The notes below the pieces were generated by a model, which did no database searches, was not told the DNA's origin, and was given only the letters and a program-made list of their open reading frames with translations. DNA of 64,000 bases from Synechococcus sp. RS9909 (GTDB lineage Bacteria; Cyanobacteriota; Cyanobacteriia; PCC-6307; Cyanobiaceae), in contig NZ_CP047943.1 of assembly GCF_014279595.1 (NCBI RefSeq), forward strand, positions 1,178,001-1,242,000, in the 5' to 3' direction. Positions 2,573 through 7,874 of the stretch are shown here, piece after piece. Positions within the stretch are counted from its first letter, which is position 1, and every line of letters starts with the position of its first letter. Both the position numbers and the translations under genes were made by a program.

Positions 2573-2587
2573 GATAGCATTGCTATC
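2573..2587. promoter_or_regulatory. inverted-repeat operator of the FitA/VapC pair
   Basis: GATAGCA, one T, then TGCTATC form a perfect 7-bp inverted repeat 17 nt before the antitoxin ATG. Its position suits autoregulation by the ribbon-helix-helix antitoxin. Confidence 0.55.
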
Positions 2588-2603
2588 AGCGTTGGGTGAC
2601 GCC

Positions 2604-2840
2604 ATGGCTGACCTGTTGGTGCGGGGTGTCGATGACGCCCTCGTGCAGGCCCTCAAGAAGCGGGCCGGGGCCCATGGACGCAGTCAGGAAGCCGAGCTGC
2701 GGGCGATCCTGTCCGCGGCGCTGCTGAGCCCACCGCGGCGCAAGCTGGCGGACCTACTGGCGGCCATGCCGGATGTGGGCGTGGATGCCGATTTCCAGCG
2801 CCACGACGAGCCAGCGGCGGCGGCCGATGTTTTTGATTGA
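2604..2840 (+). CDS. FitA-like ribbon-helix-helix antitoxin
   Basis: This 78-aa protein has an N-terminal ribbon-helix-helix (LLVRGVDDALVQALKKRAG, then GRSQEAELRAIL), as in FitA/StbC antitoxins. A flexible C-terminus (residues 50-78) should bind the toxin. It overlaps the downstream PIN toxin by 14 nt. ATG 2604 was chosen over TTG 2580 because it begins directly before the DNA-binding strand. Confidence 0.8.
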   Translation: MADLLVRGVDDALVQALKKRAGAHGRSQEAELRAILSAALLSPPRRKLADLLAAMPDVGVDADFQRHDEPAAAADVFD

Positions 2841-3249
2841 CACCAACGTGATCAGCGAGGCGCGCAAAGGCCGCCGCGCAGATCCAGGGGTGCAGGCCTT
2901 CTGGGCAGAGACCGCCCGCGACGACACCCCGCTGTTTCTGGCGGCCGTCACCATCGGTGAGCTGCGCCGCGGCGTGGAGTTGATCCGTTACCGGGGGGAT
3001 CACCCGCAGGCCCAGCTGCTGGAGCAGTGGCTGCTGGAGGTGCTGGAGACCTACGGCGATCGGGTGCTGGACCTCGATGGTGATGCGGCCCAGATCTGGG
3101 GGCGATTGCGGGTGCCCAATCCCCACAACGCCATCGATAAGCAGATCGCTGCCATCGCCCTGCTGCACAACCTCACCGTGGTGACGCGCAACACCGATGA
3201 TTTCGCCGGCTGCGGGGTGCGGCTGCTGAACCCGTTTCAGGTCCTCTGA
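2827..3249 (+). CDS. vapC: PIN-domain toxin, FitB/VapC type
   Basis: This 140-aa protein starts MFLIDTNVISE, the classic FitB/VapC beginning. Other acidic PIN residues are visible in TIGELRRGVE, NAIDKQIAAIA and TRNTDDF. It is a probable endoribonuclease neutralised by the gene just upstream, intact and of normal length. It is the second PIN-type pair within 2.5 kb, from a different subfamily than the first. Confidence 0.88.
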   Translation: MFLIDTNVISEARKGRRADPGVQAFWAETARDDTPLFLAAVTIGELRRGVELIRYRGDHPQAQLLEQWLLEVLETYGDRVLDLDGDAAQIWGRLRVPNPHNAIDKQIAAIALLHNLTVVTRNTDDFAGCGVRLLNPFQVL

Positions 3250-3292: not shown

Positions 3293-3559
3293 TCACCGGT
3301 CCATCCGCGTCAGCGCGGCTCCACCCAGCAGCGCCAGCAGCAGGTTGAGGGTGGAATCAAAGCCGCCCTGCAGCTGCTCCAGCGTGCCGGGGCAGATCTG
3401 CCCGATCGGCCGGCCTTCCATGGCCCGCTGGCCGCAGACCCCGGCGGCGAGGGAATAGACCAACAGCTGGGTGCCGATCACCACCGCCAGGATCTTGAAC
3501 ACAAACCGCTCCCGGTCAAACGGCGGCTTGGGCGGCCGGGGCACTGGGTCGGCTTGCAT
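3293..3559 (-). CDS. small membrane protein, possible holin
   Basis: This 88-aa protein has two hydrophobic segments (FKILAVVIGTQLLVYSLAA and STLNLLLALLGGAAL), a proline/charged N-terminus and a basic C-terminus. It starts 20 nt after the stop of the lysin gene upstream, and a GGAGG ribosome site precedes ATG 3559. A two-helix membrane protein after a lysin is typical of a phage holin. The function is inferred from topology and neighbourhood. Confidence 0.5.
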   Translation of the reverse strand: MQADPVPRPPKPPFDRERFVFKILAVVIGTQLLVYSLAAGVCGQRAMEGRPIGQICPGTLEQLQGGFDSTLNLLLALLGGAALTRMDR

Positions 3560-3578
3560 CGCTGCTCCTCCCAGGCGA

Positions 3579-4909
3579 TCAGGACCCAACCGGCGGCAGC
3601 ACGAGCGCGCCGCTCTGCAGCAGCCCCCAGATGCGCTGGGCCTCCGCCTGGCGTCGCTCGGTGTGGGGCGTGCCCGGCCTGAAATAGCCCTCGGCTGTTG
3701 CCGCTGATCCGGTCCAGTAGGCCGCCGCTGCGGCTGGAGTCATGCCATGAGGCCGATCCTCAAAGACGCAGGTCCAACCGATCAACGAGCCCTCCGGCGG
3801 ATCGTGCAGGCCGGCGTACTCCTCGGCGAAGTACTGCTCCTGCCAGTCGTTGCTGTTGGGATCGATCCCGTCAGCGATGGCCTGCAGCCGAGCAGCGTCA
3901 TAGGCGGTGCGGCGCACGCCCGTGTACTGCATGGCGCCGCGGCCGGCGCCACTGCCGGCCTCCACCACATCAAGGTTCTCCAGCTCCGGTTCACCGGTTT
4001 CGACGACCATGCAGCCGAGGAAACCGCAGGCCTCTTCCGCCGTGAGGGATTGGATGACGCCGAGGCTGGCCTCGGTGACGGCGCTGCTGCAGAAGAACTC
4101 CAGCCAGTGCTGCAGGTTGGCGTGGGCCAGGGATGGCTCCCCAAAGGTGCATCCCCCTGGGGCCTGGCCCGTCGACACTTTTTTTCCTGGAACACCCCCA
4201 CGTAGACGGTGCCCTGGCGGTAGAGGGGTAACACCTTGTCGCGCAGATCAGCGTTGTGCAGGCGCACGCAACCGAGGGTGGGGTGCAGGGGCTGCTGCGG
4301 TGCCCAGGCCCCAGGCCAGCCGCAGGCCGATCCGCCGCCGTGGAGCATGATCCCGGCCCGACCAACGGCCACCTCCTGGCCCTCCAGCTCCTCCATGTCG
4401 AAGGAGTACCAGCCGTAGCCCATGGCGGTGTCGGAGCAGGGGGGATTGGGGTTCTGCTCGTAGTCCGCATAGAGCTTCCCGAGCTTGTAGAGCCCAGGCG
4501 GTGTGTCGGTGTTGGTGTGGCTCCAGTCGGTGTCAGCACCCTGGCCGCGCGCCAGGCAGGGAATCTTCCAGAGGAAGGCCCCGGTGTGGTCGTAGGCCTC
4601 CATGTCCTCGTCCCGGTCATTCACCAGCAGGTAGGTGTCGCCGGCCTGGACAGGGGCGGCCATCTGCGGGCCGGCCATGCCGGCTTCCTCTGAACCGCGG
4701 GGATCCAACCCACCGGTGGGAGTTGGCGGCTGGGATGGCTGCTCGCTGTAGGTGACGGCCCAGGGGGCCTGCTCATCGAGGATCGCGGCCCCTTGGTCGC
4801 TGCTGCCGATGGCGGCATACAGCTGCAGAACGCCGCGCAGCTGTTGCGGCTGGCCTGAGTAGAAGCGGAAGCGATCGGCAAACCGCTCGGCGCTCATCGG
4901 GGTGGTCAT
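3579..4909 (-). CDS. two-domain phage lysin: L,D-transpeptidase + lysozyme-like, joined by a -1 frameshift
   Basis: The first frame (ATG 4909) holds a YkuD-type L,D-transpeptidase-like domain with the HGGG segment and catalytic-type TLGCVRLHN motif. The second frame (to 3579) holds a lysozyme-like domain with a candidate catalytic Glu (VVETGEPEL) and the GAMQYTG strand seen in phage tail lysozymes. The frames differ by -1 and meet at an A_AAA_AAG heptamer (4178-4184). Without a shift the first frame runs on for about 130 codons of low-complexity shadow sequence to 3782. A shift would give about 440 aa. Alternatives are a one-base deletion in the A run, or separate translation of the lysozyme from GTG 4178, which has AGGA upstream. 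Confidence 0.7.
4124..4185 (-). promoter_or_regulatory. candidate programmed -1 ribosomal frameshift signal
   Basis: On the minus strand the codons GAA AAA AAG contain an in-phase A_AAA_AAG slippery heptamer (4184 to 4178). A 7-nt spacer follows. Then come GGGCCAGG (4170-4163) and its exact complement CCTGGCCC (4131-4124), giving an 8-bp stem. This is the classic bacterial frameshift layout. The same heptamer is used by the two IS elements in this window. Confidence 0.6.
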
Positions 4910-5043
4910 GGGATGGGGTGCTGACCCCTGCCCTTGCCAGCGGGCGCTCAACCCTGCGTCTGCCTGGATCCCGCGCACCCGTGATGCGGTGGGCTGGGAA
5001 ACCCTGCTGATCCATCCGATACTGAATGGATCCGACTGGTGCC

Positions 5044-5361
5044 ATGGCCAGCGCAGACACTCTGCTTGTATTCGGTCCTGATCAGGTGCTTGCACTGCTG
5101 CGTGAGCGCCAAAGCGAATGGCGGCAGCGCTATCAGGTGCAACGCATTGGGCTGTTCGGCTCCATGGCTCGCAACCAGACCACGGCCTCCAGTGACGTAG
5201 ATGTGTGGGTTGAACTCGATCCCCTCACGCCCTATGCCACCGTCCACCTGAAGCAGGAGCTGGAGGAGTTGCTGCAGCGCCCGGTTGATCTGGTGCGTTT
5301 GAGGGAGCGCATGAATCCCGCCCTACGGCAGGCCATACTGCAAGAAGGCATCAGCGCGTGA
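5044..5361 (+). CDS. mntA: MntA-type nucleotidyltransferase antitoxin
   Basis: This 105-aa minimal nucleotidyltransferase has the GSMAR loop followed by SDVDVWVEL, the metal-binding DxD of the fold. In type VII modules MntA modifies its HEPN partner and so silences it. It overlaps hepT by 4 nt (GTGA). An alternative ATG at 5026 lies inside an inverted repeat (GATCCAT...ATGGATC, 5009-5032) that may be the operator, so I prefer ATG 5044. It is intact. Confidence 0.85.
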   Translation: MASADTLLVFGPDQVLALLRERQSEWRQRYQVQRIGLFGSMARNQTTASSDVDVWVELDPLTPYATVHLKQELEELLQRPVDLVRLRERMNPALRQAILQEGISA

Positions 5362-5732
5362 GCGGTGACCTGTTGTTGCTGCTTACCCCGCTGCGGCAGG
5401 CCCTGGAGCGGATCGAGCGCAAGGCACAACCCTTGCTGATGGATCCGGCACTGCTGGACCATGAGGAAGGCCAGGACCTGCTCGATGTGATTTGCATGCA
5501 GTTCCTGGCAGCCGGGGAAGCACTCAAACGACTGGACAAGCTCCAGCCTGGGCTTCTGGCAGCGAGCTTTCCTGCTGTCGACTGGAAGGGAGCTATGGGG
5601 TTTCGCGATGTCATTGCGCATCAGTACTTCGATCTCGACGCCGAGCAGGTGCTGCTGATCTGCCAGCAGGCCCTACCCGGCGTTCTGGCTGCCGTTCGCG
5701 ACCTTGAGCAACGCAGTCAGGACACGACCTAA
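5358..5732 (+). CDS. hepT: HEPN-domain toxin HepT
   Basis: This 124-aa all-helical HEPN protein has the RNase-type motif R-x4-H (FRDVIAHQYF, about residues 82-91), including the HQYF end typical of HepT. It is probably an RNase inhibited by MntA. The GTG start overlaps the mntA stop. No truncation is seen. Confidence 0.85.
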   Translation: MSGDLLLLLTPLRQALERIERKAQPLLMDPALLDHEEGQDLLDVICMQFLAAGEALKRLDKLQPGLLAASFPAVDWKGAMGFRDVIAHQYFDLDAEQVLLICQQALPGVLAAVRDLEQRSQDTT

Positions 5733-6098: not shown

Positions 6099-6245
6099 CG
6101 CACCTGGCAACAGCTGCTGTTGTCACTGGGGCGAAGCCCCGGGAGCGTGCCCTTGGGCCTGACGCTGATCGACGCGCAGAAAGTCGCCCGCCGCGCCGAA
6201 CAGCTCGCGGTGCTCAAGACCGTTGCAGAGGAGCAGTTGCTGCGC
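6099..6245 (+). repeat. partial duplicate of the capsid gene 5' end (copy 1)
   Basis: About 147 bp here match 6915-7061 with scattered substitutions. They include the leader, the GGGAG ribosome site, the GTG start and the first 30 or so codons of the major capsid gene. The two copies bracket higBA and are 816 bp apart in the same orientation. Confidence 0.85.
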
Positions 6246-6266
6246 TTGCCCGGCCGCTACGTCTGA
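6147..6266 (+). pseudogene. truncated major capsid gene fragment
   Basis: GTG 6147 corresponds to GTG 6963 of the full gene. The frame encodes 39 residues beginning MPLGLTLIDAQKVARRAEQL, which closely match the capsid N-terminus (I/D and K/V changes only in this stretch). It then drifts and stops at 6266, overlapping the end of higA. It is a relic or a by-product of the insertion that brought higBA. Confidence 0.7.
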
Positions 6267-6556
6267 GCAGCCACCAGGGGCTGGATCTGCTCCAGCTCGT
6301 CGGCCAGTTCAGCGCTGGCCAGCTCAGTGTCGTGGGCGGCCTGGGCCCGCAGCCAGTACCCGGGACTGAGGCCCAGAAACCGGCAGAGGCGCAGATCGGT
6401 ATCGGCGGTGATCGCCCGCTGGCCCGTCACGATTTCACTGATCCGTGAGGCCGGCACGCCAATGGCCTTGGCCAGCCGGTACTGACTGACACCCAGCGGC
6501 TGCAGGAACTCCTCCTGCAGCAGTTCACCGGGGGGGATGGGGGGTAGACGGTTCAT
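6257..6556 (-). CDS. higA: HigA-type antitoxin (XRE helix-turn-helix)
   Basis: This 99-aa protein begins with the family-typical PPIPPGELLQEEFLQPLG. A helix-turn-helix follows (QYRLAKAIGVPASRISEIVTGQRAIT), then helices that contact HigB. It is encoded 8 nt downstream of higB, the reversed order typical of HigBA. It represses the operon and binds the toxin. Intact. Confidence 0.9.
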   Translation of the reverse strand: MNRLPPIPPGELLQEEFLQPLGVSQYRLAKAIGVPASRISEIVTGQRAITADTDLRLCRFLGLSPGYWLRAQAAHDTELASAELADELEQIQPLVAAQT

Positions 6557-6564
6557 GGCAAGGA

Positions 6565-6843
6565 TCAGTGGTAGTCGACGATTTCGACGGCATCGGGGCC
6601 GGCGGCCGTCCAGATGAAGCAGAGACGGAACTGGTCGTTGATGCGGATGCTGTGCTGGCCTGCGCGATCACCCCGCAGGGCCTCTAGTCGGTTGCCCGGG
6701 GGAACACGCAGGTCGTCCAGACGGCCTGCGATCTCCAGCTGCCTGAGCTTGCGGCGGGCTACGCGTTCAAAGGACTGGAACCTGGGCACGGCCCAGCCCT
6801 GGGCCAATCGTTCGGTGTCGGGACATCGGAACGAGCGGATCAT
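6565..6843 (-). CDS. higB: HigB-type mRNA interferase
   Basis: This 92-aa RelE-fold toxin has the family landmarks: MIRSFRCPDTERL at the start, VARRKLRQLEIA, the PPGNRLEAL turn and the C-terminal INDQFRLCFIW strand with EIVDYH. It is expected to cleave mRNA on the ribosome. It is first in a two-gene operon, divergent from the capsid gene whose 5' fragments flank the module. Confidence 0.92.
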   Translation of the reverse strand: MIRSFRCPDTERLAQGWAVPRFQSFERVARRKLRQLEIAGRLDDLRVPPGNRLEALRGDRAGQHSIRINDQFRLCFIWTAAGPDAVEIVDYH

Positions 6844-6914
6844 CCATCCACCTTAGTTCCGCAGCGCAGAACGGTTGCTGTCTGCTGCGCGAAGGGGCCA
6901 GCCAGCCCTGCTTG

Positions 6915-7061
6915 CGCACCTGGCAACAGCTGCTGTTGTCACTGGGGCGAGGCCCCGGGAGCGTGCCCTTGGGCCTGACCTTGATCGAGGCGCAGAAATA
7001 CGCCCGCCGTGCCGAGCAGCTGGCGGTGCTCAAGACCTTCGCGGAGGGGGAGCTGCTGCGC
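6915..7061 (+). repeat. capsid gene 5' end (copy 2, in the full gene)
   Basis: This is the partner of the repeat at 6099-6245. Leader and first codons are conserved between copies, so the duplication is not confined to coding sequence. Confidence 0.85.
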
Positions 7062-7874
7062 CGCCTGCCCTTCCGCAACCTCGTCGGCGGCTCGTTGAGC
7101 TTCCCGGCGGAGACCAAGCTCCCCCGCGTGGGTTTTCGGGCGGTGAACGAGGGCTACCGCCAGAGCTACGGGGTGATCAACTCCGATTCGGAGTTCGTGC
7201 ACCTGTTTGGCGGCGACCTGGATGTGGACCGCTCGATCGTGGACCTGCAGGGCCCTGAGGCCCGCGCTGCCCAGACCGAAATGAAGGTGCGCTCGATGCG
7301 CCTCACCTTGGAGGCCGCGATCATCAACGGCGATGACACCTTCGATCCGCGGGCGTTTAACGGGCTGAGCAAACGCCTGGTGCCGGGCGCGGACCAGACG
7401 ATCGACAACGGCGGCAGCACCCTCAACCTGCTGGCGCTGGAGGCGCTGACCGACAGCGTGATCGGCTACGGCGGCGACAAGGTGCTGATCGCCAGCAAGG
7501 CGGCCCGCCGCCAGATCAGCACCGCCTCCCGCCAGGCCGGCGGCGATCTGTATGAGGTGATCGACGGCCGGCACTTCTTCGAGGGGATCGAGATCCTGCT
7601 GGTGGAGGAGGACGCCGAGGGCCATGCGGTGCTCGGCTACGACGAACCCGGAGACACCACCTCGATCTACTGCTGTGTGCTGGGGGATGCGGCGGTCTGC
7701 GGTCTGCAGGGCCCGTTCGAGGGTCGCTACGGCATCTCGGTGCGGGATTTCGGGGAGGTGCATGACGCGCCGGTGTTCCGCACGCGGGTGGATTGGTACG
7801 TGGGCTTTGCGGTGTGCAACCGCAAGGCCGCCGCACGCCTGTTCAACGTCGCCCCGATGCCGCTGGTGGTCTGA
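6963..7874 (+). CDS. phage major capsid protein
   Basis: This 303-aa protein has the layout of a HK97-fold capsid subunit. A helical N-arm (MPLGLTLIEAQKYARRAEQL) is followed by the FRNLVGGSLSF strand, a long central domain with RSMRLTLEAAIINGD, and a C-terminal domain ending in YVGFAVCNRKAAARLFNV. I chose GTG 6963 after GGGAG; TTG 6912 would translate the duplicated leader. It heads a run of co-directional virion genes to 12287. The gene itself looks intact. Confidence 0.75.
   Translation: MPLGLTLIEAQKYARRAEQLAVLKTFAEGELLRRLPFRNLVGGSLSFPAETKLPRVGFRAVNEGYRQSYGVINSDSEFVHLFGGDLDVDRSIVDLQGPEARAAQTEMKVRSMRLTLEAAIINGDDTFDPRAFNGLSKRLVPGADQTIDNGGSTLNLLALEALTDSVIGYGGDKVLIASKAARRQISTASRQAGGDLYEVIDGRHFFEGIEILLVEEDAEGHAVLGYDEPGDTTSIYCCVLGDAAVCGLQGPFEGRYGISVRDFGEVHDAPVFRTRVDWYVGFAVCNRKAAARLFNVAPMPLVV

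Follow-up and report, generated by a model that had tools for sequence, protein, structure and literature searches.

Most known cases of programmed frameshifting in tailed phages concern tail assembly chaperones, which account for 2397 of the 2476 joined genes of the PRFect set in the portion of that paper drawn on here (PMC10885494). The same portion counts lysins among the genes known to contain a frameshift, with references beginning with Shearman 1994, so a lysin precedent may exist. That earlier system, known here from its title in the reference list, is a phage lysin from overlapping frames, as is the locus described below. A paper on the Ms6 lysin, in the excerpt used, carries the unproven suggestion that ribosomes shift frame at a GTGA junction before lysA (PMC3111421). 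We searched the literature for frameshifting together with endolysins or lysins, for AAAAAAG overlaps and for transpeptidase lysins, and none of the titles or abstract openings listed describes the present lysin.

In E. coli dnaX, according to the excerpt used, an SD-like element, the slippery heptamer A_AAA_AAG and a downstream hairpin act together (PMC3711429), and the same three elements are found at our locus. Stimulatory SD-like elements have been searched for 6-17 nt upstream of slippery sites in the part of the source seen (PMC4066793), a range that includes the 8 nt observed here. E. coli reads AAA and AAG with one tRNA-Lys, in contrast to the two lysine tRNAs and transcriptional slippage of the thermophilus case (PMC5009743, in extract). 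Our host resembles E. coli in this respect: among the 43 tRNA genes found, the sole lysine anticodon is TTT, i.e. tRNA-Lys(UUU).

The locus lies in a prophage region of Synechococcus sp. RS9909, within a stretch of 64,000 nucleotides (NZ_CP047943.1, positions 1,178,001 to 1,242,000) of a 2.6 Mb genome in a single contig; this whole stretch is called the window. Here, on the minus strand, a predicted YkuD-type L,D-transpeptidase (LDT) gene is followed by a predicted lysozyme in the -1 frame (Table 1). Comparison of genomes gives good support to the reading that a dnaX-type -1 frameshift makes an LDT-lysozyme lysin from this pair, although we treat this as a prediction from sequence. An earlier note on this DNA had proposed the two frames and their -1 offset; its coordinates hold, and Pfam assigns the first frame to PF03734 (E 4.9e-5) and the second to PF18013 (E 8.5e-8, with the match beginning at residue 45). 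H190 and C214 of the LDT are invariant in an alignment with 13 relatives. The lysozyme frame has a dN/dS of 0.13-0.37 in 13 pairs (L171, in which the lysozyme is deleted, was left out) and appears to be under purifying selection.

Table 1. Features of the lysin cassette in the window
Feature	Position	Strand	Remarks
LDT frame	4178..4909	-	N-terminal stretch (~65 aa) and YkuD domain; ATG 4909; C-terminal end ...GVFQEKK
SD-like GGGGGTG	4193..4199	-	8 nt upstream of heptamer; anti-SD duplex -12.2 kcal/mol
Slippery heptamer A_AAA_AAG	4178..4184	-	in phase, spelled GAA AAA AAG
Spacer TGTCGAC, 7 nt	4171..4177	-
Outer 8-bp stem, 5' arm	4163..4170	-	MFE fold
Inner 9-bp hairpin stacked on outer stem	4139..4162	-	4162-4154 with 4147-4139; MFE fold
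Outer 8-bp stem, 3' arm	4124..4131	-	MFE fold
Lysozyme frame (-1)	3579..4178	-	linker and Phage_lysozyme2; 199 codons counted from GTG 4178
0-frame run-on beyond lost LDT stop	3782..4177	-	131 codons and stop; out of frame with lysozyme
Small ORF	3293..3559	-	ATG 3559, GGGAGGAG upstream; two hydrophobic stretches (by eye)

Two peptidoglycan-active domains, PF03734 and PF18013, in a phage region with capsid and scaffold genes nearby suggest a protein of the endolysin class. The neighbouring phage genes include those of a major head protein (6912-7874; phrog_212, E 6.6e-54) and a head scaffold (60-677; phrog_206, E 2.7e-11), and PHROGs held no match to the LDT or the lysozyme protein. The S-2L lysozyme shares the N-terminal stretch of the LDT (50% identity over 23% of the query). 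Structure prediction was poor for the two proteins (mean pLDDT 60.1 and 57.0). Against the PDB, the lysozyme model had 13 matches, none convincing (best E 2.0). The LDT model matched Campylobacter Pgp2, which we take to be a YkuD-fold protein, at the top (E 3.2e-3) and mycobacterial L,D-transpeptidases next; no match reached 1e-3, so no function was drawn from them. A search of PDB sequences returned no lysozyme relative and, for the LDT, two chance-level matches, both to a peroxisome receptor.

The small ORF that follows the lysozyme had no Pfam match, and its relatives likewise come after the lysin genes in the relative loci inspected; by position it may be holin-like. Four toxin-antitoxin-like pairs ring the cassette within 7 kb: a MazE-like/PIN pair (810-1437), a FitA-like RHH/PIN pair (2580-3249), an NTP_transf_2/HepT-like pair (5026-5732) and an HTH/HigB-like pair (6257-6843). 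The last of these sits between the units of a 147-nt direct repeat (6099-6245 and 6915-7061, 90% identical), which duplicates the 5' portion of the gene for the major head protein.

The heptamer is in phase with the LDT frame and lies within a run of exactly seven A (4185-4179) followed by G at 4178. Structures that stimulate -1 frameshifting typically begin about 5-9 nt past the heptamer. Here, both the 7-nt spacer and the 8-bp stem proposed in the earlier note were recovered; the stem is part of the MFE fold and extends into nine inner base pairs, with outer and inner stems together folding at -33.3 kcal/mol over 60 nt. That note had overlooked the GGGGGTG element (4199-4193), the possible GTG start at 4178, and the stop that follows the heptamer in the LDT genes of relatives. 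It had also pointed to the same heptamer with a downstream structure in two IS elements of the window (11491-11485 and 14444-14438), and both copies do prove to be in phase and to have a second frame at -1; the Pfam domains of their transposases fit the IS3 family, a name that comes from the earlier note. The window holds five copies of AAAAAAG where 1.6 would be expected, and 2 of 100 shuffles reached that number. By itself the heptamer is thus no more than mildly unusual, and the argument rests on conservation. In a search of Rfam restricted to 3500-5000, two sub-threshold matches (radC and mir-278) were returned, neither of them at the heptamer.

We regard a dnaX-like programmed -1 frameshift that gives an LDT-lysozyme fusion as the best explanation of this arrangement, and as probably correct. 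The signal would comprise three parts: GGGGGUG as the SD-like element, A_AAA_AAG as the slippery site and, beyond a spacer of 7 nt, a GC-rich hairpin. Ribosomes that stay in frame would make the N-terminal stretch and the LDT, stopping right after the heptamer in the relatives, while those that slip by -1 would fuse the LDT to the lysozyme and so gain a second catalytic domain. We infer the slipping, its efficiency and the role of both forms in lysis. In the window, TGT stands directly after the heptamer, where the other 13 heptamer-bearing LDT-lysozyme loci have TGA or TAG; the 0 frame runs on to a stop at 3784-3782, and the in-frame product would carry 131 unrelated residues. The window copy thus seems to be partly damaged with its frameshift signal intact, and a shifted product would be unaffected by the lost stop. 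The earlier proposal of two lysin forms stands insofar as the frames allow both; it does not stand for two clean forms from this copy, because the 0-frame stop has been lost.

Relatives were sought in viral contigs (the best 80 of 301 in one search), in species genomes and in whole genomes. With profiles, 13 of 399 genomes of the order had a lysozyme match and 54 of 399 an LDT match, some of the latter by the N-terminal stretch alone, and neither protein turned up in the 20 genomes of the same genus listed in each whole-genome search. Altogether, 200 LDT rows reduced to 110 distinct junctions. With L319 and L171 (lysozyme internally deleted) added, 15 distinct junctions run directly from an LDT to a lysozyme frame, and 14 of the 15, from a search that included the best 80 of 301 viral contigs, carry the heptamer with the lysozyme at -1, which supports the earlier note's reading of a programmed frameshift; these loci are related to each other and the counts are not independent. 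All 14 spell GAA AAA AAG. Apart from the window (TGT), nine have TGA (L199, L120, L118, L196, L201, L151, L119, L319 and L186) and four have TAG (L165, L170 and L172, which are intact, and L171). The fifteenth, L205 (the same junction as in L167), reads GCC TGATG, with an own overlapping ATG and no heptamer. A scan of viral contigs with a DNA pattern for the junction found 36 stretches, eight with LDT relatives, all on known contigs; the remaining 28 were treated as chance.

Four of the 14 heptamer loci are damaged: the stop is lost in the window, the LDT is broken in L319 and L186, and the lysozyme is deleted in L171. The frame break in the LDT of L186 (Synechococcus sp. GFB01) lies upstream of the heptamer, at about 5474-5492, and could be a mutation or a draft error. 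L171, on contig 46 of Cyanobium sp. Cruz-8D1, keeps the heptamer and TAG, and another copy in its assembly, L151, has TGA and a lysozyme of full length. In a tree of 61 LDT rows, in which the bootstrap had not settled, heptamer rows fall into two supported clades, one of 26 rows (support 96/91; three with a changed heptamer) and one of four rows (100/99); lineages without the heptamer fall outside these two. L319 and L186 were left out of the tree and of the synonymous-site count on account of their broken LDT, and the partial L209 was left out of the latter. On this topology, the heptamer may have had one origin followed by losses, or two origins.

Several observations suggest that the signal itself is under selection. 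In the same genes, 12.6% of Glu codons are GAA and 14.0% of Lys codons are AAA, so the A-rich GAA AAA AAG does not reflect codon bias. LDT rows with neither the heptamer nor a changed form of it mostly end in QE plus one residue, and none ends in KK. Across 12 lysozyme-bearing loci, synonymous difference in the last seven LDT codons is 0.043 vs 0.299 elsewhere, ranking 2 of 166 windows; with longer windows the rank is 12 of 161 (12 codons) and 6 of 153 (20 codons), and the rank of the seven-codon window is 23 of 166 when 17 lysozyme-deleted loci are taken instead. A changed heptamer or GGG GTG was found in 0 of 14 lysozyme-bearing loci vs 8 of 18 lysozyme-deleted loci (Fisher p 0.0044, uncorrected for relatedness). 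Taken singly, GGG GTG is changed in 6 of the 18 (p 0.024) and the heptamer in three (Fisher p 0.24, not significant). These counts indicate that the frameshift signal probably decays where the lysozyme has been deleted; the 15 deleted loci that still keep the heptamer may reflect recent deletion.

The lysozyme-deleted loci (L197, L198, L045, L193 and 14 more) keep a short tail in the -1 frame, of about 11-14 residues in those read. Most of these tails end like the lysozyme C-terminus (LVLPPxGA), and the deletion thus seems to have cut out the domain while the two ends of its frame stayed in place. On the reverse strand of L003, a lysozyme remnant after the LDT stop is in frame with the next small hydrophobic ORF, so that a frameshift there would fuse the LDT to the small ORF; in L003 the heptamer is changed.

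The earlier note looked to homologues for the heptamer and stem. The heptamer and offset are kept in 14 of 15 junctions, as given above; the stem appears well placed in the TGA clade, with more doubt in the TAG clade. Over the 50 nt that begin 6 nt past the first stop base, mean folding z is -1.54 in lysozyme-bearing loci (n=14) vs +0.72 in deleted loci (n=18); a control window at +120 gives -1.12 and -1.15, and the contrast is accordingly moderate. The best helix follows a spacer of 7 nt in 11 of 14 loci, of 6 nt in L165 and of 8 nt in L172 and L171. When the 5' arm was held fixed and the rest shuffled, a contiguous helix reached p<0.05 in 5 of 14 lysozyme-bearing and 0 of 18 deleted loci, and the test was weak for L170 (0.54), L172 (0.65) and L186 (0.31). 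The arms vary in sequence with pairing kept (GGGCCAGG/CCTGGCCC, GGGCCAA/TTGGCCC and GGGGCCCGGG/CCCGGGCCCC). GGG GTG is kept in all 14 lysozyme-bearing heptamer loci. The mean anti-SD duplex is -11.7 in these, -11.3 in the 18 deleted loci and -4.2 in 47 no-heptamer strings, the last being distinct upstream strings that fit a pattern and not all loci; the element is not exclusive, as -12.2 is likewise reached by 4 of 18 close relatives without the heptamer.

A frameshift is not the only way to reach the lysozyme frame. GTG 4178 is a possible lysozyme start with a weak AGGA 6 nt before it, and a non-frameshift reading by translational coupling therefore exists, in which the LDT ends at TGA, ribosomes restart at the overlapping GTG, and the A run is an unstructured spacer behind the AGGA. 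In all nine TGA loci, AAG TGA does hold a GTG in the -1 frame, a GTGA stop/start overlap, and the junction reads GTG ATG in L120 and L118; taken alone, these loci would suggest an ordinary gene pair. The first three relatives indeed pointed to a plain GTGA overlap whose stop the window had lost, a reading overturned by the TAG clade, where GTA replaces GTG with the heptamer kept: the lysozyme start codon is not conserved across homologues, and under coupling translation of the lysozyme would begin at an internal or non-standard codon. ATG, GTG and TTG are all absent from the lysozyme frame of L165 over the 73 codons before the junction, and its first downstream start codon is a GTG at codon 25, 13 codons past the NLQxW start. 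In L170, the first downstream start is codon 54, and two upstream starts, at distances of 116 and 131 codons, fall within the LDT gene. L172 has a GTG at codon 11, behind an AGGAG, and its nearest upstream start is 31 codons back, also inside the LDT gene. Stand-alone lysozymes with an own ATG (L205 and L317) start 3 to 6 residues before NLQxW, and the stretch from NLQxW is thus part of the protein. No start codon separates the heptamer from NLQxW in two of the three intact TAG-clade loci (L165 and L170), which argues against plain reinitiation. The codon-25 GTG of L165 has an AGG upstream and a position before the Pfam-matched core, and a shortened lysozyme from it is a possible product that would favour coupling, as would a start at codon 11 of L172; for L165 and L170, frameshifting at the kept heptamer would be the simplest route to expression. 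L186 has a linker and domain like those of L165 and yet stops at TGA, so the type of stop changes and the heptamer stays. Further in favour of coupling, relatives do have lysozymes with an own ATG: L205 after an LDT, and both G190 loci (L317 and L318) after a gene with a related N-terminal stretch and a C39-like peptidase. The separate lysozyme ORF is frame-broken in both G190 copies (Pfam was run on L317 only). L205, which does restart, is without the heptamer, however, and in the window there is no stop at the junction where a ribosome could terminate. The AGGA was judged a weaker signal than GGGGGTG, which lies 14 nt from the GTG but 8 nt from the heptamer, and 14 nt is a long spacing for initiation. 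We prefer the FRAMESHIFTING reading, as judged from the sequences, over the GTGA overlap, and coupling appears unlikely.

The A run also brings in transcriptional slippage, by which an extra A in part of the mRNA would reach the -1 frame. A homopolymer does stand at the frame change, and some IS elements use slippage, but seven A compare with nine in a large proportion of genomes and with eight, productive in Nostoc and Deinococcus, in the section of the source used (PMC1088944); moreover, slippage needs no conserved phase, G, SD-like sequence or hairpin, and it is very improbable as an account of the family. The earlier note's own rival was the loss of one base from the A run, by mutation or sequencing error, splitting a former single-frame LDT-lysozyme gene. 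Such a loss would be in keeping with a prophage copy damaged elsewhere, in its LDT stop, but the relatives refute it: 14 distinct junctions share the seven A and the -1 offset and come from many assemblies, a complete genome among them, a 0-frame stop stands right at the junction in 13 of 14, and no single-frame form with eight A occurs among the 15 junctions. We consider this the least probable of the alternatives, with next to no likelihood of being right.

If programmed -1 frameshifting is what occurs here, one gene would yield two forms of the enzyme at a fixed ratio. We tentatively raise the possibility, itself rather doubtful, that this ratio controls lysis, with the LDT-only form, whose N-terminal stretch is shared by other cyanophage lysins, and the fusion acting in a mixed assembly or in sequence and the slipping efficiency setting composition and timing; this would parallel, at the level of the ribosome, the lysins that have in-frame internal starts. 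A lysin that gains a second catalytic domain by a dnaX-like signal would widen the known phage uses of recoding, and gene calling restricted to single frames would overlook fusions of this kind. The family would also offer natural variants of the signal, with TGA, TAG or no stop, with an own ATG, with the lysozyme deleted and the signal decaying, and with single-frame fusions elsewhere.

Compared with known systems, the locus differs from dnaX, an unrelated gene, in that the frameshift product of dnaX is the shorter one and that of the lysin gains a whole catalytic domain. It resembles the orfA/orfB genes of IS3-family elements, of which the window holds two copies, in the in-phase A_AAA_AAG, the -1 overlap and the downstream structure; those genes encode a transposase, and the SD-like duplex is weak in the IS copies (-4.8 and -5.1 vs -12.2 in the lysin). 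Like the frameshift of tail assembly chaperones, it concerns a phage gene pair with a short and an extended product, although a structural assembly protein is made there and a predicted lytic enzyme here. In domain content it resembles single-frame cyanophage lysins, in which YkuD is joined to a glycosidase: S-CBS4 gp063 (Glucosaminidase and YkuD), L177 (Phage_lysozyme and YkuD), and L146, L135 and L130 (Phage_lysozyme2 and YkuD; the lysozyme domain of L135 and L130 is below the Pfam cut-off). In L019, Phage_lysozyme2 is joined to a C39-like peptidase. Such single-ORF fusions in other cyanophages suggest that a fused two-domain product is common in the group. Those lysins are encoded in one ORF with the glycosidase first and no frameshift, whereas in the window family the LDT comes first and the two domains lie in frames offset by -1.
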